Assembly: GCA_036003045.1 (NCBI GenBank)
Contig: DASYSS010000099.1
Span: 62,001-126,000 of the forward strand
Direction of reading: 5' to 3'
Source of the DNA: Gemmatimonadaceae bacterium
Lineage (GTDB): Bacteria > Gemmatimonadota > Gemmatimonadetes > Gemmatimonadales > Gemmatimonadaceae
DNA length: 64,000 nucleotides
The stretch's first letter is position 1. Every line of letters begins with the position of its first letter. Of this stretch, positions 10,646 to 54,068 are shown piece after piece. The position numbers and the translations under genes were made by a program. A model generated the notes under the pieces. It saw only the letters and a list, made by a program, of their open reading frames with translations. It was not told the DNA's origin and ran no database searches.

Positions 10646-10706
10646 AAAGACGTCGCTCGCCATGTTTCGGTGATGGTCCGAGGCCGGCGAGCCGTAGTTT
10701 CGGCCC

Positions 10707-11081
10707 ATGTCAGCGGCCAAACAGCAATTCGGCGAGCTCGGGGAGCAGATCGCGGAGCGATGGCTCACTCGGCACGGATGGCGTGTGATGCAGCGGCGAT
10801 TTCGGAGCGGTCACCGGGACATCGATCTCGTCGTGGAGCGAGAAGGCACCGTCGCGTTCGTCGAGGTGAAGGCCCGTCGCGGCAGTGAGTTCGGCGATCC
10901 GGTCGAGGCGGTGAATTGGAGCAAGCAGCGCGAGCTGATCCGCTCCGCCTCGGTCTGGATCGACCGGCACGGCCGGCCGGACGACTCGTATCGCTTCGAT
11001 GTGGTCGGAGTTCTCGTGGAGGGCGACCGCGTTCGAGTGCGCCACGTGCCCAACGCGTTCGCGCTACGCGATTCCGCTTGA
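10707..11081 (+). CDS. YraN/UPF0102 family endonuclease-like protein
   Basis: The 124-residue protein has the restriction-endonuclease-like fold of UPF0102: [20 protein letters not shown], then [26 protein letters not shown], which contains the D...ExK nuclease triad (Asp of RDIDLV and E-V-K). Family members bind or cut DNA and are often near recombination genes; here recA follows 115 bases downstream. A TAGTTT at 10695-10700 ends six bases before the ATG, so the mRNA may be leaderless. Biochemical role remains undefined. Confidence 0.88.
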
Positions 11082-13735: not shown

Positions 13736-13741
13736 TATATT
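13736..13741 (+). promoter_or_regulatory. Putative -10 box of alaS (leaderless arrangement)
   Basis: TATATT at 13736-13741 ends six bases before the alaS ATG at 13748, so the start site would fall on or next to the A of the start codon. No strong -35 hexamer is seen at the right distance (CTGATT is the nearest), so the call rests on the -10 alone. The 224 bases between the preceding gene and alaS hold no other feature I can support. Confidence 0.4.
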
Positions 13742-13747
13742 CCGAGA

Positions 13748-16537
13748 ATGAAGGCCGCCGAGATTCGATCCCGTTTTCTCAAATATTTCGAGCGCAACGA
13801 TCACGCCGTGTTGCCGAGCTCGTCGCTCGTCCCTGCCGACGACCCGACGCTCCTGTTCACGAACGCCGGGATGGTGCAGTTCAAGCGCGTTTTCCTGGGA
13901 GCCGAAGCGCCGCCCAACGGACGACGTCGAGCGACGACCTCGCAGAAGTGCGTGCGCGCGGGGGGAAAGCACAACGACCTCGAACAGGTCGGACACACCG
14001 CGCGCCACAACACGTTCTTCGAGATGCTCGGCAACTTCTCGTTCGGCGACTATTTCAAGCGGGACGCGATCCGATTCGCCTGGGAGTTCGTCACGCAGGA
14101 TCTCGGACTCGACCCGAAGCTGCTGCGCGTTTCCGTGCATCATTCCGACGACGAGGCGCGCGCGCTTTGGCGTGAGATCGCCGGGCTTCCGGACTCGCGC
14201 ATCTACGGACTTGGCGACAAGGACAATTTCTGGCAGATGGCGGACACCGGTCCGTGCGGCCCGTGCTCCGAGATCTTCGTCGACATGGCGCACATCGCCA
14301 AAGATTGGCGCTTGCCCCAAGGCGCGACCGGTGAATGGACCGAGCTCGATCGCGACGAATTTTCGCTCGAGGCATTCATCGAAGGATCCGACCGCGATCG
14401 GTTCATCGAGTTCTGGAACCTCGTATTCATGCAATTCGACCGGCGGCCGGACGGCACGATGGTGCCGTTGCCGAAGCCGTCGGTCGACACGGGCGCCGGC
14501 CTCGAGCGAATCTCGGCGATCACGCAGGGCGTGACGATGATCTACCACACCGACCTCTTCGCGCCAATGCTGTCGGCCGTCGAGCAGGCGGTGGGCATTC
14601 AATACTGGGGACGCGAGAGCGACCAGTCACGAACCGGCGTCCGCGTAAGATCGGGCGGCGTCGTGCAGAACGCCGTGAGCCCCGCTTCGTTCCGCGTTCT
14701 CGCCGACCACGCGCGCGCCGTGTCGTTCCTGCTCGCCGACGGCGTATTCCCGTCGAACGAGGGACGCGGCTACGTGCTGCGCCGCATTCTGCGGCGCGCC
14801 GTGCGTCACGCATGGCTCCTCGGCCGCAAGGAGCCGACCCTCGTGCACGTCGCTCAGGCGGTGATCGATTCGATGGGCGACGCGTACCCGGAGCTTCGCC
14901 TACGATCGAAGCACATCCTCGACACCACGCGCCAGGAAGAGCAGGGCTTTCTCGCCACGATCGAGGGTGGGCTCACGCGCTTCGATCAACTCGCTCCGGT
15001 GCAATCGGTCGGTGGCGGGACCGACGTCCGAGGCACGATCAGTGGAGAGGACGCGTTCCGTCTCTACGACACGTTCGGCTTCCCGATCGACCTCACGGAG
15101 CTGATGGCGCGCGAGCGCGGCTACGTGGTGGACATCGCCGGATTCGAGGCCGCGCTCGATCAGCAGCGGCGACGTTCACAGGAAGAGAGAAAGGCAAAGC
15201 GCGTCGGCGTTGCCCTCGACGCGTTGGCGAATCTCTCCGAATTCGAGGCAGCGCCCGGGGTGGGCCCAGCGGCGACATTCGTTGGATACGACGCGATCGA
15301 AATCGAAACGCAGACGACCGCCGTTCGGCACCTCGACGGCGGACGCGTCGCCGTGTTGCTCCGCGAGTCGCCGTTCTACGCCGAGTCAGGCGGACAGATC
15401 TCCGATCAAGGTGAGATCGTCGGCGAGGGTTGGCGCGTCGACGTCGACGAAGTCCGAAAGATCGAAGGGCGTCCGGCGGCGATCGGGAGAATCACCGGCA
15501 CGTTCCACTTCGGCCGCGTCATCGCGCGCGTGCCGAGCGACCGGCGGCGCGACACGGAACGCAACCACACGGCGACGCACCTGCTCCACGCCGCGCTACG
15601 ATCCGTGCTCGGCGACGGTGTCCATCAGGCGGGCTCGCTCGTCGCGCCCGATCGGCTTCGTTTCGACTTCACGCACCACGGCCCGGTCTCGGCCGAGCGG
15701 CTCGGCGAGATCGAGAGCATCGTGAATCGGGAGATCGCGCGCAGCATTCCCGTTACCACGCGCGAGATGGCCTACGCCGACGCGCGCGCGGCGGGCGCGA
15801 TGGCCCTGTTCGGCGAGAAGTACGGCGACGTCGTGCGCGTGGTGCGAGTCGCCGACTTCTCGATGGAGCTGTGCGGCGGCACTCATGTGCGCAACACGGC
15901 CGAGATCAATCTGTTCAAGATCGTCACCGAGACCGGCGTGGCCGCCGGCGTCCGCCGCATCGAAGCGCTGACCGGGCCGGGCGCGTACCAGCTGATTCGC
16001 AGCGAGGAGCGCGCGCTCCACCGGATCGCCGAATCGCTCAAGGCGCCGGTCGACGGCGTCGAGAAGCGCGTTGCGGCGCTGTTGGACGAGCGGCGTACGC
16101 TCGAGCGTCGCCTCGAGGAGGCGATGCGCGGCGGCGGCGATCAGCTGCAGTCGCTGCTCGGCGGCGCGCAGGCGCTCGGGGGTGGGGGGGAGCACAACGG
16201 CTCGAAGTTGGTGACCGGCGTCGTTCGCGCGGGCGACGTGAAGGAGCTCCAGGCGCTCGGCGACGCGGTGCGCGAGAAGCTCGGCAGCGGTGTTGGCGTG
16301 TTGGCGGCGAGCTTCGAGGACGGAAAGAACACTTTGCTGGTCGTCGTGACGGACGACCTGCGTCAGCGCGGTCTGCGCGCCGACGCCCTGATCAAGGACA
16401 TCGCCGCCGCGGCGGGTGGCCGTGGAGGCGGAAAGCCGCACATGGCGCAGGCAGGCGTACCCGATGCCGCGCGTTTCGGCGACGCGCTCGCCCGTGCTCC
16501 CGAGCTCGTGCGCGACGCGTTGGTCGGCGCCGAGTGA
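13748..16537 (+). CDS. alaS: Alanyl-tRNA synthetase
   Basis: AlaRS charges tRNA-Ala. The 929-residue protein is slightly longer than the usual 870-890. It has the class II catalytic core from residue 1 (IRSRFLKYFERNDHAVLPSS; FTNAGMVQFK; QKCVRAGGKHNDLEQVG), the editing domain with the zinc-ligand motifs HTATHLLHAAL and CGGTHVRNTAEI, a coiled-coil around 760-800, and the C-terminal C-Ala domain with a Gly-rich GGRGGGKPHMAQAG motif. The gene has its own -10 box and overlaps the next small ORF by GTGA. Confidence 0.97.
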   Translation: MKAAEIRSRFLKYFERNDHAVLPSSSLVPADDPTLLFTNAGMVQFKRVFLGAEAPPNGRRRATTSQKCVRAGGKHNDLEQVGHTARHNTFFEMLGNFSFGDYFKRDAIRFAWEFVTQDLGLDPKLLRVSVHHSDDEARALWREIAGLPDSRIYGLGDKDNFWQMADTGPCGPCSEIFVDMAHIAKDWRLPQGATGEWTELDRDEFSLEAFIEGSDRDRFIEFWNLVFMQFDRRPDGTMVPLPKPSVDTGAGLERISAITQGVTMIYHTDLFAPMLSAVEQAVGIQYWGRESDQSRTGVRVRSGGVVQNAVSPASFRVLADHARAVSFLLADGVFPSNEGRGYVLRRILRRAVRHAWLLGRKEPTLVHVAQAVIDSMGDAYPELRLRSKHILDTTRQEEQGFLATIEGGLTRFDQLAPVQSVGGGTDVRGTISGEDAFRLYDTFGFPIDLTELMARERGYVVDIAGFEAALDQQRRRSQEERKAKRVGVALDALANLSEFEAAPGVGPAATFVGYDAIEIETQTTAVRHLDGGRVAVLLRESPFYAESGGQISDQGEIVGEGWRVDVDEVRKIEGRPAAIGRITGTFHFGRVIARVPSDRRRDTERNHTATHLLHAALRSVLGDGVHQAGSLVAPDRLRFDFTHHGPVSAERLGEIESIVNREIARSIPVTTREMAYADARAAGAMALFGEKYGDVVRVVRVADFSMELCGGTHVRNTAEINLFKIVTETGVAAGVRRIEALTGPGAYQLIRSEERALHRIAESLKAPVDGVEKRVAALLDERRTLERRLEEAMRGGGDQLQSLLGGAQALGGGGEHNGSKLVTGVVRAGDVKELQALGDAVREKLGSGVGVLAASFEDGKNTLLVVVTDDLRQRGLRADALIKDIAAAAGGRGGGKPHMAQAGVPDAARFGDALARAPELVRDALVGAE

Positions 16538-26866: not shown

Positions 26867-27880
26867 TTAGACGCTCGGTGCCAAGGGCGCAAGCACATGC
26901 GCGTCGTACGCGTCGATCACTTCTTCCGCCGAAACGGTGGCCGCGCCGAGCTTTCCAACTTCGACGCCCGCCGCATAGTTCGCGATCACCGCGGCCTCGA
27001 GCGCGCTGCCGCCGGCGCCGAGGATGAGCGCGAGATACGCCGTCACCGTGTCGCCGGCGCCGACGACGTCGTAGACCTCGCGAGCCGCGGTCGGGACGCG
27101 CTCGATGTCGCCGCCGGCCGACACGAGCGCCATGCCGTGCTCGCCGAGCGTGAGAAGGAGATGCTCCACGCCGAGACGCGCGAACGTTGCGGGGAGCGCT
27201 TCGGCGTGCTCGAGATCGACGGCGGCGCCGAGCGCGGCCTCCAGCTCGCGGCGATTCGGCTTGAAGATGGTGGCGCCGCGATAGAGGAAGAAATTGCGAT
27301 ACTTCGGATCGACGACGATCGGAATGCCGCGCCCGCGCGCCGCCTGCATCGCCGCTTCGATGACGTGCGGAACCAACACGCCTTTGTTGTAGTCCTCGAG
27401 CACGAGGGCGTGCGCATCGTCCACCGCGCGGCGCACGGCCGTGAGCAGGCGATCGACTTCCGCGCCGTTCAAGTCGCCGTCTTCCTCTTCGTCGACACGC
27501 ACGACCTGCTGCGAGCGCGCCACGATGCGCGTCTTGGTGGTCGTCGGACGGTCCACCGTCACGAGCGAACCGACGGGAGCGCCGATCGCTTCCAGCATGC
27601 CGCATAGATGGCGGCCCGCCATGTCGTCGCCGATCGCCGCGACGAGATCGCACATCGCGCCGACGGCGCGCACGTTCTGCGCGACGTTTCCGGCGCCGCC
27701 GAGCGCGTGGCGACGTTCGCGGACGCGAACCACGGGCACGGGCGCTTCGGGCGAGATACGCTCGACGTCGCCGCGCAAATAGACGTCGAGCATCGCGTCG
27801 CCGAGCACCGCGACGCGGCAGCGCGACGCACCCTCGAGGAGCTCGATCAACCGATCGCGATTCAACGGGCGGCGACTCAT
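26867..27880 (-). CDS. D-glycero-beta-D-manno-heptose 7-phosphate kinase (RfaE1/HldE N-domain type)
   Basis: The 337-residue PfkB-family kinase shows VAVLGDAMLDVYLRGDVERI, SPEAPVPVVRVRERRHALGG, AGNVAQNVRAVG, and the anion-hole motif DVVGAGDTVTAYLALIL near residue 265. These are the marks of the HldE kinase domain, which makes heptose 1,7-bisphosphate in ADP-heptose synthesis. The adenylyltransferase domain of full HldE is missing, so this is the one-domain form. gmhA, the preceding pathway step, is at 17.6 kb. The start ATG at 27880 is preceded on its strand by TACCTT six bases upstream. An apparent extension of the frame to 28885 covers the divergent transporter and is spurious. Confidence 0.88.
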   Translation of the reverse strand: MSRRPLNRDRLIELLEGASRCRVAVLGDAMLDVYLRGDVERISPEAPVPVVRVRERRHALGGAGNVAQNVRAVGAMCDLVAAIGDDMAGRHLCGMLEAIGAPVGSLVTVDRPTTTKTRIVARSQQVVRVDEEEDGDLNGAEVDRLLTAVRRAVDDAHALVLEDYNKGVLVPHVIEAAMQAARGRGIPIVVDPKYRNFFLYRGATIFKPNRRELEAALGAAVDLEHAEALPATFARLGVEHLLLTLGEHGMALVSAGGDIERVPTAAREVYDVVGAGDTVTAYLALILGAGGSALEAAVIANYAAGVEVGKLGAATVSAEEVIDAYDAHVLAPLAPSV

Positions 27881-27914
27881 GGCGAGAAGGTAATGAATGC
27901 TTCGAGGAAACGCA

Positions 27915-27943
27915 TTGACGCGCCCTGAGACGCGGTCTACACT
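27915..27943 (+). promoter_or_regulatory. Predicted promoter of the EamA transporter gene
   Basis: TTGACG at 27915-27920, exactly 17 bases, TACACT at 27938-27943. The start site is expected near 27950, about 3 bases before the ATG at 27953, giving a leaderless or nearly leaderless mRNA. Confidence 0.6.
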
Positions 27944-27952
27944 CTCGGGCGC

Positions 27953-28903
27953 ATGGCCCCACCCCCCGACTCCAACCCCGGATTGCGCGCGACGAATCCC
28001 AGCGGCGTGCCCGTCCCGCTCGTCCTGCTGCTGGCGCTCGTCGGCATTTCGTTCGCCGCGCCGCTCGTGCGTCTCTCGCACGCGCATCCGCTCACGATCG
28101 CGATCTGGAGGCTCGGATTCGCGCTCGTTTTCATTCTCGGCGCGCTCGTCGCCACGGGTACGTGGCGGCAGTTCCGGCGGCTCGATCGCGGCGGGCTTGC
28201 GCTCGCCGCCGCCGCCGGGATCATGCTGGCGTTTCACTTCTGGAGCTGGAACGCGTCGGTCGGCATGACGACGGTGGCGGCGTCGGTCGTGCTGGTCAAC
28301 GTGCAGCCGGCGTTGGTCGCGCTGCTCTCCGGCGCGGTGCTCGCCGAGCCGCCGACGAGCGGCCAGTGGGTCGGCATCGTCACGGCGATGTTCGGCGCGT
28401 TCGTCGTCGCGCTCCCCGATCTCCTGTCCACAGCCGGAGCCATGACCGGGCAAGCGCTCACCGGCGACCTGCTCGCGCTCGTCGGCGCGGCCGCCGCCGC
28501 GGGATATGTGATCGCCGGGCGCCGACTGCGCTCCGTGCTCGACATCTGGCCGTACGTGTCGATCGTGTACGGCGTGTGCTTCGTCGTGCTGCTCATCTTC
28601 GCGCGCGCCGTACACGCGCCGATCCTCGGACAGCCGCCGAGGGAGATGGGAATCTTTCTCGCGCTCGCCATCGGGCCGATGCTGTTCGGCCACACCGGAA
28701 TCAACTGGGCGCTGAAATACATGCCCGCGTACGTGGTGAATCTCACGCTGCTCGGCGAACCGGTCGGCGCGACGTTTCTCGCCGCGCTGCTGCCGGGCAT
28801 TCGCGAGATCCCGCGCGTCGCCACCGTGGTCGGCGGCCTGCTCGTGTTGGCCGGGATTCTCGTCGCCGCGCGCTCGACCCGGCAACGGCGCTTCGCCCTC
28901 TGA
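27953..28903 (+). CDS. EamA/DMT-superfamily transporter
   Basis: The 316-residue protein has ten predicted membrane helices arranged as two EamA repeats: VPLVLLLALVGISFAAPLVR, LGFALVFILGALVATG, LALAAAAGIMLAFHFWSWN in the first half, and ALVGAAAAAGYVIAGRRL, GIFLALAIGPMLFGHTGINW, VGGLLVLAGILVAARS in the second. These exporters move amino acids, metabolites or nucleotide sugars; the cargo cannot be predicted. The N-terminal 20 residues are Pro-rich and polar. It diverges from hldE and precedes the second asparaginase by about 118 bases. Confidence 0.88.
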   Translation: MAPPPDSNPGLRATNPSGVPVPLVLLLALVGISFAAPLVRLSHAHPLTIAIWRLGFALVFILGALVATGTWRQFRRLDRGGLALAAAAGIMLAFHFWSWNASVGMTTVAASVVLVNVQPALVALLSGAVLAEPPTSGQWVGIVTAMFGAFVVALPDLLSTAGAMTGQALTGDLLALVGAAAAAGYVIAGRRLRSVLDIWPYVSIVYGVCFVVLLIFARAVHAPILGQPPREMGIFLALAIGPMLFGHTGINWALKYMPAYVVNLTLLGEPVGATFLAALLPGIREIPRVATVVGGLLVLAGILVAARSTRQRRFAL

Positions 28904-32575: not shown

Positions 32576-33706
32576 GTGCTCCCTCGCCATCTGTACGTCC
32601 ACGTTCCGTTCTGCGCGCGACGCTGCGTGTACTGCGATTTCTCGATCGCGGTTCGCCGCGACGTGCCGGTGGACGACTACGTGTCGGCGGTCGCCAGGGA
32701 GTTGGAGATTCGATTCGCGGGCGCAGAGCGTTTCGGGGAGGTCTCGACGCTGTATCTCGGCGGCGGCACGCCGTCGAGGCTCGGCGGGGCGGGCGTTTCG
32801 AGATTGCTCGAGATGCTCACGAGACGAATCGAGTTCGCGCCCGATGCCGAGGTGACGCTCGAGGCGAATCCCGACGATGTCACGTCCGAGACGGCCAAAG
32901 CGTGGCGCAACGCCGGCGTCAATCGACTGTCGATCGGCGCGCAGTCGTTCGACGACGGCGTTCTGTCATGGATGCACCGCACGCATGACGCGTCACAGAT
33001 TGGTCGCGCGGTCGACGCCGCGAGGCGCGCCGGGATCGATGACGTTTCCGTCGACCTGATCTTCTCCCTGCCCGAAAAGACTCAACGCTCGTGGGCGGCC
33101 GATCTGGAGCAGGCACTCGCGCTCGAGCCGACCCACGTGTCCTTGTACGGTCTCACCATCGAGCCTCACACGCCGTTGGGGAGATGGCGTCAAAGGGGAG
33201 AGGTCGATGAATCGCCGGACGAGCGCTACGAGGCCGAGTTTCTGACGGCGCACGAGACGCTTGCCGCAGCGGGCTTCGACCACTACGAGGTCTCGAACTT
33301 CGCGCGACCTGGGCGTCGCGCGCGGCACAACTCGTCGTACTGGAAGCGAGTACCGTACACCGGCATCGGGCCCTCGTCGCACGGCTTCGACGGAACCGAA
33401 CGGCGGTGGAACGAGGCCGCCTATGCCGAATGGTGCCGTTTGCTCGCTGAAGGATCCGACCCTCTGGCCGGCCGCGAGCTTCTCACCGCGGAGGACGTGG
33501 CGGCCGAGCGAGTTTACCTGGGTCTCCGAACGATCGATGGATTGACCCTCACAACCGACGAAATCACACGCGTTTCCCCGTGGGTTGAGCACGGGTGGGC
33601 GCTGTTGCGCGATGGTGACCGCGCGGTCCTGACCCCGCAGGGGTGGCTCCGGCTGGACGCCCTCGCGGCCGACTTGACAGTCGAGCGAAGTCGTTACTAT
33701 GTTTGA
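32576..33706 (+). CDS. hemW: Radical SAM HemW (coproporphyrinogen oxidase-like)
   Basis: The 376-residue protein has the CX3CX2C radical SAM motif (CARRCVYCDF) near residue 12, the GGGTPSRLGGAG glycine motif, DLIFSLPEKTQRSW, and the HNxxYW motif (RHNSSYWKRVPYTGIG) that separates HemW from the true oxidase HemN. HemW inserts haem into respiratory enzymes. The GTG at 32576 gives the family start LPRHLYVHVPFC. The last bases overlap the alternative start of hrcA. Confidence 0.9.
   Translation: MLPRHLYVHVPFCARRCVYCDFSIAVRRDVPVDDYVSAVARELEIRFAGAERFGEVSTLYLGGGTPSRLGGAGVSRLLEMLTRRIEFAPDAEVTLEANPDDVTSETAKAWRNAGVNRLSIGAQSFDDGVLSWMHRTHDASQIGRAVDAARRAGIDDVSVDLIFSLPEKTQRSWAADLEQALALEPTHVSLYGLTIEPHTPLGRWRQRGEVDESPDERYEAEFLTAHETLAAAGFDHYEVSNFARPGRRARHNSSYWKRVPYTGIGPSSHGFDGTERRWNEAAYAEWCRLLAEGSDPLAGRELLTAEDVAAERVYLGLRTIDGLTLTTDEITRVSPWVEHGWALLRDGDRAVLTPQGWLRLDALAADLTVERSRYYV
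33674..33700 (+). promoter_or_regulatory. Predicted hrcA promoter
   Basis: A perfect TTGACA lies at 33674-33679. TACTAT (33695-33700, 15-base spacer) or CTATGT (33697-33702, 17-base spacer) can act as the -10. The transcript would begin near 33708-33710 and thus be almost leaderless for the ATG at 33711. No CIRCE inverted repeat (TTAGCACTC-N9-GAGTGCTAA) is visible here. Confidence 0.5.
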
Positions 33707-33710
33707 AGTT

Positions 33711-34760
33711 ATGGCATCAGAGCAGCTCAACAAGCGTGAGCGCCGCGTGCTCGAGGCCGTGATCCGAAGTTACGTGGAGACTGCGGAGCCGGCGGGCTCG
33801 CGGACTCTCTCCAAGCGGTTCGGTCTCGGCGTGTCCCCGGCGACGATCCGCAACACGATGAGCGACCTCGAAAACAAGGGGTTTCTCTTCCATCCGCACA
33901 CGTCGGCGGGGCGCGTTCCGACGAACAAGGCCTACCGCGCGTACGTCGATTCGCTCTTGAGCTTGCCGCCGCTCCGGGCGGTGGAAACCGAACGTCTGAT
34001 CGAAGAGATCACGGGCGCCAACGCGTCTCCGATCGAGATGGTGCTTCGACGCGCCGCGCAGACGCTCGGCGTTCTGACACAGGAATTGGGCGTCGCTCTC
34101 GGACCCCGTCTCGATCACTCCATCTTGCGTCGGCTCGAGCTGGTACGAGTGAGCAGCGAGCGAATGCTCATGGTGCTCACGCTCGACGGCGGCATGGTGC
34201 GTACGGTGTTCGTCGAGGTTCCGGTCGACATCGCCGACACAGCGCTCGGCGCCGTGACGGCGGTGCTCAATGAGCGCCTGGCCGGTCTGACACTCGGCCA
34301 GATTCGCGGATCGCTGCCGGAGCGACTGCGCGACAGCAGCTCCGATCCACGCGCCGCGGAGCTGTTGAACATCTTCGTGCAAGAAGGCGAACAGTTGTTC
34401 GAGGCGGCGATGCCGATCTCCGACGCGCAGCCCGTACTGTTCGGCTCGACGTCGTCGCTCACGGAACAGCCCGAGTTTTCGGCCGCCGATCGGCTGCGCC
34501 GTCTGCTGGAGCTGACCGAAACGCCGCACGCGCTGGGTGAGACGATGCGCAAGCGCGTGCACGCGCCTGGCATCTCGATCACGATCGGCGCGGAACACGA
34601 CGACCCGCGGCTGGAAGACTTCACCGTCGTCACGGCGGAGTATCACATCGGACCGTTGGCGGGCGTGATCGGCGTGATCGGTCCGACGCGCATGCCGTAC
34701 GACAAGGTGATCGCGCTGGTGAGCCATACGTCGCGACTGCTCAGCGACCTTCTCGAGTAA
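33711..34760 (+). CDS. hrcA: Heat-inducible transcription repressor HrcA
   Basis: HrcA normally represses groE and dnaK operons by binding CIRCE elements. The 349-residue product has the N-terminal winged helix (LNKRERRVLEAVIRSYVETA; GLGVSPATIRNTMSDLENKG; HTSAGRVPTNKAYRAYVDSL), and the family's C-terminal dimerisation and GAF-like domains with GVIGVIGPTRMPYDKVIALV. The ATG at 33711 fits the family; an earlier in-frame ATG at 33699 is inside the hemW end. dnaJ follows at once, without grpE or dnaK. No CIRCE was seen in the window, so its targets must be elsewhere. Confidence 0.93.
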   Translation: MASEQLNKRERRVLEAVIRSYVETAEPAGSRTLSKRFGLGVSPATIRNTMSDLENKGFLFHPHTSAGRVPTNKAYRAYVDSLLSLPPLRAVETERLIEEITGANASPIEMVLRRAAQTLGVLTQELGVALGPRLDHSILRRLELVRVSSERMLMVLTLDGGMVRTVFVEVPVDIADTALGAVTAVLNERLAGLTLGQIRGSLPERLRDSSSDPRAAELLNIFVQEGEQLFEAAMPISDAQPVLFGSTSSLTEQPEFSAADRLRRLLELTETPHALGETMRKRVHAPGISITIGAEHDDPRLEDFTVVTAEYHIGPLAGVIGVIGPTRMPYDKVIALVSHTSRLLSDLLE

Positions 34761-47347: not shown

Positions 47348-47376
47348 TTGGGGGGGCGCCCCGGTCGGACTATAAT
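47348..47376 (+). promoter_or_regulatory. Predicted coaD promoter with consensus -10
   Basis: TTGGGG at 47348-47353, exactly 17 bases, and a perfect TATAAT at 47371-47376. The start site falls at about 47383, four bases or so before the ATG at 47387, so the mRNA should be nearly leaderless. Confidence 0.6.
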
Positions 47377-47386
47377 TCTCCGCGCT

Positions 47387-47869
47387 ATGCGAACGGCTCT
47401 TTACGCAGGCAGCTTCGACCCGATCACCCGCGGCCATGAAGATCTCATGCTGCGGAGTCTTGCATACGTCGATCGGCTCGTCGTCGCCGTCGCGACGAAC
47501 TCGTCGAAACACCCGGTGTTTACGGTGCAGGAGCGGGTCGACCTGATCCGCGAGACCGTATCGAACGAGCCCCGGATAACCGTCAAGAGCTTCGACGGCC
47601 TTCTCGTCGAGTTCGCCGCGCAGGAAGGAGCGCAGCTGCTCATCCGTGGCCTTCGCGCCGTGAGCGACTTCGAGTACGAGTATCAGATGGCACTCATGAA
47701 CCGCCACCTGTCGCCAAAGCTGGAGACCGTGTTCATGGTGCCGTCGCTCGACACCACGTACATCAGCGCGAGTCTCGTCCGCGAGATCGCGCGATACGGC
47801 GGCGACGTCTCGAGCCTCGTGCATCCGGCCGTCGCGGCCGCGCTCAAGAAGCGCCTCTCGTCGAAATGA
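47387..47869 (+). CDS. coaD: Phosphopantetheine adenylyltransferase
   Basis: CoaD carries out the fourth step of coenzyme A synthesis. The 160-residue protein has the nucleotidyltransferase motif TALYAGSFDPITRGHEDLML (HxGH-like) and the second motif DTTYISASLVREIARYGGDV in the place of ISSTxVR. Length is exactly typical. ATG 47387 is used; an ATG-type start further upstream would lie in front of the -10 box. The last bases overlap the pta start. Confidence 0.96.
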   Translation: MRTALYAGSFDPITRGHEDLMLRSLAYVDRLVVAVATNSSKHPVFTVQERVDLIRETVSNEPRITVKSFDGLLVEFAAQEGAQLLIRGLRAVSDFEYEYQMALMNRHLSPKLETVFMVPSLDTTYISASLVREIARYGGDVSSLVHPAVAAALKKRLSSK

Positions 47870-52816: not shown

Positions 52817-52822
52817 TAGGTT
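52817..52822 (+). promoter_or_regulatory. Putative -10 box of the arginine deiminase gene
   Basis: TAGGTT ends seven bases before the ATG at 52830, the same hexamer as the infC -10 and the same close spacing as in other leaderless candidates here. No strong -35 is visible. Confidence 0.35.
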
Positions 52823-52829
52823 TGGTCGC

Positions 52830-54068
52830 ATGCCGCCGGTCCACGTGTCGTCGGAAATCGGACAGCTGCGCTCCGTCCTCGTGCATTCCCCCGGACCCGA
52901 GTTGCTTGCCGTAACTCCAAGCAATCGGGCCGATTATCTCTACGACGACATCATCGAGGCCGAGGCCGCCCAGCGAGAACATCGCCGATTCATCTCGGTC
53001 GTCGAGCGGTTCGCGACGGTCTACGAGGTTCGCTCGCTGCTGGCCGAAACGCTGGGCACCCCACAGTCGCGCGAGCTGCTGATCCGCGAGACGATGGACA
53101 TCGTCCCGTCGGAGCCGCTCGCCCGCGACATCGGCGAGCTCGACGCCGCGGCGCTCGTGAGGATGCTCATCGAGGGACGCGACGAGCCTCCCGGCCCGAT
53201 CGCCAAAGCCCTGAACGAACCGGGGCACGTGCTGCCGCCGCTGCCCAACCTGTTCTTTACCCGAGACAGCTGCGTCGTGGTCGGCGGCCACGTGCTGATC
53301 GGGTCGATGCGCTACGCGATCCGCTGGACCGAAGCGATCATCATGAAGGCGCTGTTCATGCATCACCCCGAGCTGCGCAACTCCGGCATCTTGTACGACG
53401 GCTCGGCCGAACGTCGCGTGAACTACACGATCGAAGGCGGCGACATTCATCCGCTGCGTCGCGATCTCGTCGTCATCGGGTTCAGCGAGCGGTCGAGCCC
53501 CGCGGCGATCGACCAGCTGGCCACGACGCTGTTCGACGAGACCGAAGTGCGGGACATCGTGGTCGTCGTGATGCCGAAGGAGCACACGGCGATCCACCTC
53601 GACATGATCTTCACGCAGATCGATCGCGAGCTCTGCGCGGTGTTCCCGCCGCATTTCGTCGGTCCCGAGCGGCTGCCGGTGCTGCACTGGCGAAGGGGCG
53701 AAAAGACGATTCACGAACAGCCGAACATCTTCACCGCGCTGTCGGAGTGCGACATGCCGCTCGAACCCGTGTTCTGCGGCGGAGATCGGCGAACGGTTCA
53801 AGAGCGCGAACAGTGGGCGTCCGGATGTAACTTCATCGCCATGCGCCCAGGGCTCATTTTGTCGTACCAGCGCAACGAGGCGACGCTCCACGAATTGCGA
53901 CGCATGGGCTTCCGCATCCTGTCGGCGACTGCGCTTCTCTCCGGCAGTGAACGCGTCGCCGAAGGCGAGCGCGCCGTAATCACGTTCGAAGGGAACGAGC
54001 TGGTTCGCGGCGGCGGCGGTCCGCGCTGCATGACATGCCCCGTGTTGCGCGACGACCCCTGGAACTGA
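52830..54068 (+). CDS. Arginine deiminase
   Basis: The 412-residue guanidino-group enzyme cleaves arginine to citrulline and ammonia. It has the family features: IGQLRSVLVHSPGPELLAV at the start, NLFFTRDSCVVVGGHVLIG, IEGGDIHPLRRDLVVIGFSE, the catalytic His in PKEHTAIHLDMIF, and the nucleophilic Cys in RGGGGPRCMTCPVLRDD. No arcB or arcC is nearby, so it may not be part of a full ATP-yielding deiminase pathway. Its promoter lies next to a Rex operator, hinting at redox control. It ends in a one-base overlap with the exonuclease gene. Confidence 0.9.
   Translation: MPPVHVSSEIGQLRSVLVHSPGPELLAVTPSNRADYLYDDIIEAEAAQREHRRFISVVERFATVYEVRSLLAETLGTPQSRELLIRETMDIVPSEPLARDIGELDAAALVRMLIEGRDEPPGPIAKALNEPGHVLPPLPNLFFTRDSCVVVGGHVLIGSMRYAIRWTEAIIMKALFMHHPELRNSGILYDGSAERRVNYTIEGGDIHPLRRDLVVIGFSERSSPAAIDQLATTLFDETEVRDIVVVVMPKEHTAIHLDMIFTQIDRELCAVFPPHFVGPERLPVLHWRRGEKTIHEQPNIFTALSECDMPLEPVFCGGDRRTVQEREQWASGCNFIAMRPGLILSYQRNEATLHELRRMGFRILSATALLSGSERVAEGERAVITFEGNELVRGGGGPRCMTCPVLRDDPWN

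Follow-up and report, generated by a model that had tools for sequence, protein, structure and literature searches.

A TAnntT hexamer locked to start codons points to a minority class of leaderless-type genes in a Gemmatimonadaceae genome

Our analysis of a draft genome of the Gemmatimonadota shows a -10-like hexamer locked at a short distance from start codons, conserved at that place among orthologues and moving together with the start codon, and accompanied by a lack of Shine-Dalgarno (SD) sites and a preference for AUG. These features point to sigma70-type promoters with a start point on or near the A of the AUG, which would probably give rise to leaderless mRNAs. The original prediction, that this organism commonly uses leaderless translation, holds inasmuch as leaderless-type starts recur, but they form a minority, about one in eight of the genes with an upstream region of their own and roughly half as many as the SD-type starts.

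Promoter-like sites in the window

The window, the whole 64,000-nucleotide stretch analysed, has a GC content of 66.6% and lies in a draft genome of 5.37 Mb in 106 contigs; the best nine AlaS matches are Gemmatimonadota MAGs (72-51% identity). The genes and sites considered here are listed below, with posteriors taken from the mixture model described further on.

10695..10700, + strand: yraN -10 TAGTTT, 6 nt before ATG 10707; model posterior 0.98
10707..11081, + strand: yraN (NF009154)
13736..13741, + strand: alaS -10 TATATT, 6 nt before ATG 13748; model posterior 0.99
13748..16537, + strand: alaS (TIGR00344)
26867..27880, - strand: hldE first domain only, heptose-7-phosphate kinase-type PfkB gene (TIGR02198, PF00294)
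27887..27892, - strand: hldE -10 TACCTT, 6 nt before ATG 27880; model posterior 0.92
27915..27920, + strand: eamA -35 TTGACG, read from the sequence
27938..27943, + strand: eamA -10 TACACT, N17 from the -35, 9 nt before ATG 27953; posterior 0.63
27953..28903, + strand: EamA-family transporter gene (Pfam PF00892)
33674..33679, + strand: hrcA -35 TTGACA, inside the hemW coding sequence
33698..33703, + strand: hrcA -10 TATGTT, N18 from the -35, 7 nt before the ATG; posterior 0.97
33711..34760, + strand: hrcA (TIGR00331)
47348..47353, + strand: coaD putative -35 TTGGGG, read from the sequence, N17 to TATAAT
47371..47376, + strand: coaD -10 TATAAT, 10 nt before ATG 47387; posterior 0.57
47387..47869, + strand: coaD (TIGR01510)
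52817..52822, + strand: ADI -10 TAGGTT, 7 nt before ATG 52830; model posterior 0.97
52830..54068, + strand: arginine deiminase-family gene, ADI (PF02274)

The gene names given earlier all hold, two of them in a narrower sense. The products of alaS, coaD, hrcA and yraN score above the NCBIfam cut-offs, and those of eamA and ADI above the Pfam cut-offs, the latter by a wide margin, but ADI stays below the NCBIfam arginine-deiminase cut-offs. The hldE gene matches PF00294 and reaches 338.9 bits with TIGR02198 (cut-off 345); its product corresponds to the PfkB-family heptose-7-phosphate kinase-type domain alone, without the adenylyltransferase half of the bifunctional HldE.

A check of the sequence found all seven -10-like hexamers proposed by the original prediction in their places before an ATG. 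At hrcA the promoter-like hexamer is present, but the proposed TACTAT overlaps a better-placed TATGTT, 7 nt before ATG 33711, so that the promoter is better read as TTGACA-N18-TATGTT-N7-ATG; TATGTT is preferred because two same-genus orthologues show TAGCTT at exactly that place. The statement that these genes lack a clear SD site is borne out, since the model posterior for SD is <=0.01 for all seven. Five of the sites have spacers of 6-8 nt, while eamA (9) and coaD (10) are borderline. Overall, alaS, ADI, hldE and yraN are the strong examples, and eamA and coaD the weakest of the seven.

Two of these promoter regions show particular arrangements. The hldE and eamA genes diverge across 72 bp (27881-27952), each with its -10 box pointing outwards; hldE in the window does not have the TTGACC -35 element present in many of its orthologues, and the opposite-strand TTGACG serves eamA. 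The hrcA promoter (33674-33713) lies within the end of the hemW coding sequence, with its -10 box in the last hemW codons, and in several relatives the hrcA -10 box opens with the TAG that is also the hemW stop codon. A conserved block at this place, GAAGTCGTTACTAG...ACTTATG, was considered as an hrcA operator and rejected, as the genome has a single copy of it, which codes for the conserved C-terminus of HemW (..LTxxRSRY*).

Spacing of the hexamer across the genome

Genes were called over 1.24 Mb sampled in stretches (23% of the genome) with a purpose-written program that relied on codon statistics and start-codon type and never used upstream sequence. Among the 554 genes whose upstream space measured at least 40 nt or whose neighbour was divergent, TANNNT was found 4, 23, 13, 8, 5 and 2 times at spacers of 5, 6, 7, 8, 9 and 10 nt, respectively, where dinucleotide shuffles gave an expectation of 2.27 per spacer position. 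Pooled over spacers 6-8, 44 occurrences stand against 6.8 expected (Poisson p about 2e-21). The original prediction had let its case depend on an enrichment of -10 hexamers over shuffled controls, and across this 23% of the genome the enrichment proved strong and specific for both position and motif. The spacer range of 6-10 that it had given stands for 6-8, but 9 and 10, the spacers of eamA and coaD, fall outside the peak (5 and 2 occurrences versus 2.3 expected each).

The peak nearly disappeared in operon-internal genes (n=298), in which only 5 TANNNT occurred at spacers 5-8 with 2.2 expected; it was not seen at internal in-frame ATGs and was absent in every GC band of control loci from other phyla, mostly Proteobacteria. 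Since the seven sites had been selected by eye, and those of eamA and coaD taken alone are not significant by position, AT-containing hexamers arising by chance in a sequence of 66% GC could have been invoked. For the class as a whole chance is refuted, with a negligible probability left to it, given that neither the shuffles nor the operon-internal, internal-ATG and other-phylum controls produced a comparable peak and that orthologues preserve the footprints described below; the single site of coaD or eamA may still be due to chance.

The excess of TANNNT also followed the start codon: when candidate starts were analysed it amounted to about 47 at ATG, 6 at GTG and none at TTG. SD-like sites occurred in 2 of the 36 genes having TANNNT at spacers 6/7, a scarcity that is partly geometric because the SD and -10 positions overlap. 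Upstream of the hexamer, TTG was present at 16-19 bp in 10 of 44 cases compared with 4 of 67 antisense controls (p 0.011). This -35 signal is weak overall; clear cases are eamA, hrcA and many hldE orthologues, the last two with TTGAC at promoter spacing.

These data also bear on the idea that TANNNT is an AU-rich, unstructured ribosome-binding element of the S1 type on leadered mRNAs, with the promoter further upstream, as has been proposed for Bacteroidetes. Upstream AT-rich biases have been credited to S1 binding (PMC5397173), and the FCB group uses non-canonical AT-rich ribosome sites (PMC9581028). However, the signal found here consists of a defined hexamer, TAnntT, at a fixed spacer of 6-8 rather than a broad A/U richness, it comes with TTG enriched upstream at promoter spacing, including the TTGAC of hrcA and many hldE orthologues, and it is largely missing at operon-internal genes, though those too need a ribosome site. 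We therefore regard an S1-type element as very improbable, and promoters as the far better explanation of the hexamer.

Size of the leaderless-type class

A three-class mixture model fitted freely to the 554 genes recovered TAnntT as its first class, with spacer weights of 0.40 at 6, 0.29 at 7, 0.11 at 8 and 0.06 at 9, and separated from it a second class, aGGAG at spacers 4-7, comprising 24% of the genes. The TAnntT class accounted for 11.6% of the 554 genes (bootstrap interval 8-14% for the fixed model and 10-18% with refitting), likely a lower bound because miscalled starts, that of coaD itself among them, hide true cases. Shuffled sequence gave 0% for this class, operon-internal genes gave 2.2%, and high-GC control loci, which came mostly from Proteobacteria, gave 2.5% (0-4.9%); over all called genes its share was roughly 7%. 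Start codons differed between classes: the -10 class contained 53 ATG, 6 GTG and 0 TTG (n=59), and the unassigned class 229 ATG, 120 GTG and 26 TTG (n=375), so that ATG made up 53/59 versus 229/375 (p 6e-6).

The spacer distribution is relevant to a further alternative, in which the promoters are real but transcription starts a few bases upstream and most of these mRNAs carry leaders of 2-5 nt. The spacers of eamA (9) and coaD (10), together with some alaS and hldE orthologues at 8-9, would agree with such short leaders, whereas the genome-wide mode of 6-7 puts the usual start on the A of the AUG. As a description of most members of the class, short leaders appear unlikely, although for eamA and coaD leaders of 2-4 nt may fit spacers 9-10 equally well.

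Conservation among relatives

The peak was also present in sampled stretches of a genome of the same family, which contained 8 TANNNT at spacers 6/7 with 1.5 expected, and in those of a genome from another family in the class, with 6 versus 0.9 expected; in a genome of a second family in the order an excess was not clear (3 versus 1.1). With the model fixed, the TAnntT class amounted to 4.6%, 9.2% and 6.6% in the relatives, with wide intervals.

Footprints are also seen at single genes. For alaS, 32 of 36 genomes show a TATATT-like hexamer with a spacer of 6-9 nt to the start codon, within the 5-9 nt range counted for TANNNT, and the remaining upstream sequence has diverged among the orthologues. 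Control windows at other distances gave 0; shuffling gave an expectation of 10.9, a figure inflated by reuse of the AT bases of the hexamer itself. Likewise, TANNNT is found 5-9 nt before an in-frame start in 23 of 25 ADI orthologues and in 22 of 29 of hldE, 14 of those 22 also having TTG at -35 spacing. Conservation at hrcA (22/29 with TANNNT 5-9 nt before the start) is partly protein-coding, because the promoter sits within the conserved 3' end of hemW. Two relatives have TAGTCT-6-ATG and TATCGT-6-GTG at yraN.

The start codon itself is displaced in several orthologues. In three alaS orthologues with an N-terminal extension the start codon lies further upstream and the -10 box is displaced along with it, and in three hldE orthologues and one of ADI the start has likewise shifted upstream together with the -10, as would be expected if the -10 box and the AUG work as one unit.

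The weakest sites of the window behaved differently. TANNNT at spacer 5-9 was present in just 1 of 29 coaD orthologues, so this site is not conserved; one same-genus genome has TATAGT-7-ATG. Most eamA orthologues have their start elsewhere; TANNNT precedes a start by 5-7 nt in 7 of 22 where 2.6 were expected, and in most of these the start lies 13-20 codons further in than in the window. This pattern suggests that leaderless-type promoters may have been gained repeatedly in this gene, and the eamA site of the window gains no orthologue support from it because most of the matches are at starts further in.

Discussion

RNA polymerase usually starts transcription 6-8 bp downstream of the -10 element. 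A TAnntT box located 6-8 bp before the start codon would place the 5' end of the transcript on the A of the AUG or no more than about 3 nt away, and PMC3160421 argues likewise that a -10 so placed puts the transcription start at the start codon. A transcript beginning at the AUG would therefore have no room for an SD site, and the ribosome would initiate on the 5'-terminal AUG, the mode known from leaderless mRNAs of Actinobacteria and Deinococcus-Thermus. We infer the start point from the geometry of the -10 element, and the mode of initiation likewise. The genome would mix both modes: a minority of the promoter-proximal genes would have leaderless-type starts, and a larger class, operon-internal genes included, SD starts. 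A search for the 16S tail, from which the anti-SD sequence would be read, found none in the assembly.

A tentative idea, which we consider somewhat less probable than its opposite, is that leaderless initiation in Gemmatimonadota is ancient and tied to particular genes. On this view alaS, ADI and hldE would have stayed leaderless while the family diverged deeply, alaS probably beyond the family as well, and promoter and start codon would have shifted as a unit. Selection might then act on the leaderless state as such, for instance through co-regulation under conditions that favour leaderless translation. The conserved alaS, hldE and ADI genes lend themselves to comparative work on whether being leaderless is under selection.

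The leaderless-type start is a known kind of gene start, here in a phylum for which no report of it was found: our literature search retrieved no paper reporting leaderless starts in Gemmatimonadota, although the GeneMarkS-2 survey may include members, and no transcription start-site study of the phylum. If confirmed, the Gemmatimonadota, abundant in soil and poorly cultured, would be added to the phyla in which leaderless genes are a sizeable class. Some of their start codons will be wrongly placed by gene finders that look for SD sites, a problem for which the -10 box offers a sequence-only fix; in Deinococcus-Thermus, too, a -10 adjoining an in-frame start serves to correct the annotated start (PMC12340547).

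TANNNT beside start codons marks leaderless genes in Actinobacteria, Deinococcus-Thermus and other groups (PMC3160421; PMC12340547). Zheng et al. 2011 described the same kind of signal for Actinobacteria, Acidobacteria and delta-Proteobacteria: its TANNNT core precedes the start by about 12 bp, only TAnnnT is retained where GC is high, and leaderless averages were 13-19% (PMC3160421). Gemmatimonadetes do not figure in the main text or table of that study, whose 'Other Bacteria' row (average 7.8%) could hide a member (PMC3160421). The resemblance extends to Deinococcus-Thermus, in which TANNNT mostly precedes the ORF by 6-7 bp and GGAG forms a class of its own (PMC12340547). The two cases differ in phylum, in the extent of the class (nearly one third of genes in D. 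radiodurans versus about 12% of promoter-proximal genes here) and in the kind of evidence, which includes expression tests in Deinococcus-Thermus and comes from sequence here (PMC12340547). The AT-rich non-canonical ribosome-binding sites that PMC9581028 reports for the FCB group differ from the pattern found here. According to the part of the GeneMarkS-2 survey quoted in PMC9581028, leaderless transcription occurs in 21.6% of bacterial species, and its leaderless class, as presented there, shares with our genome the mixture of leaderless and SD starts within a single genome.
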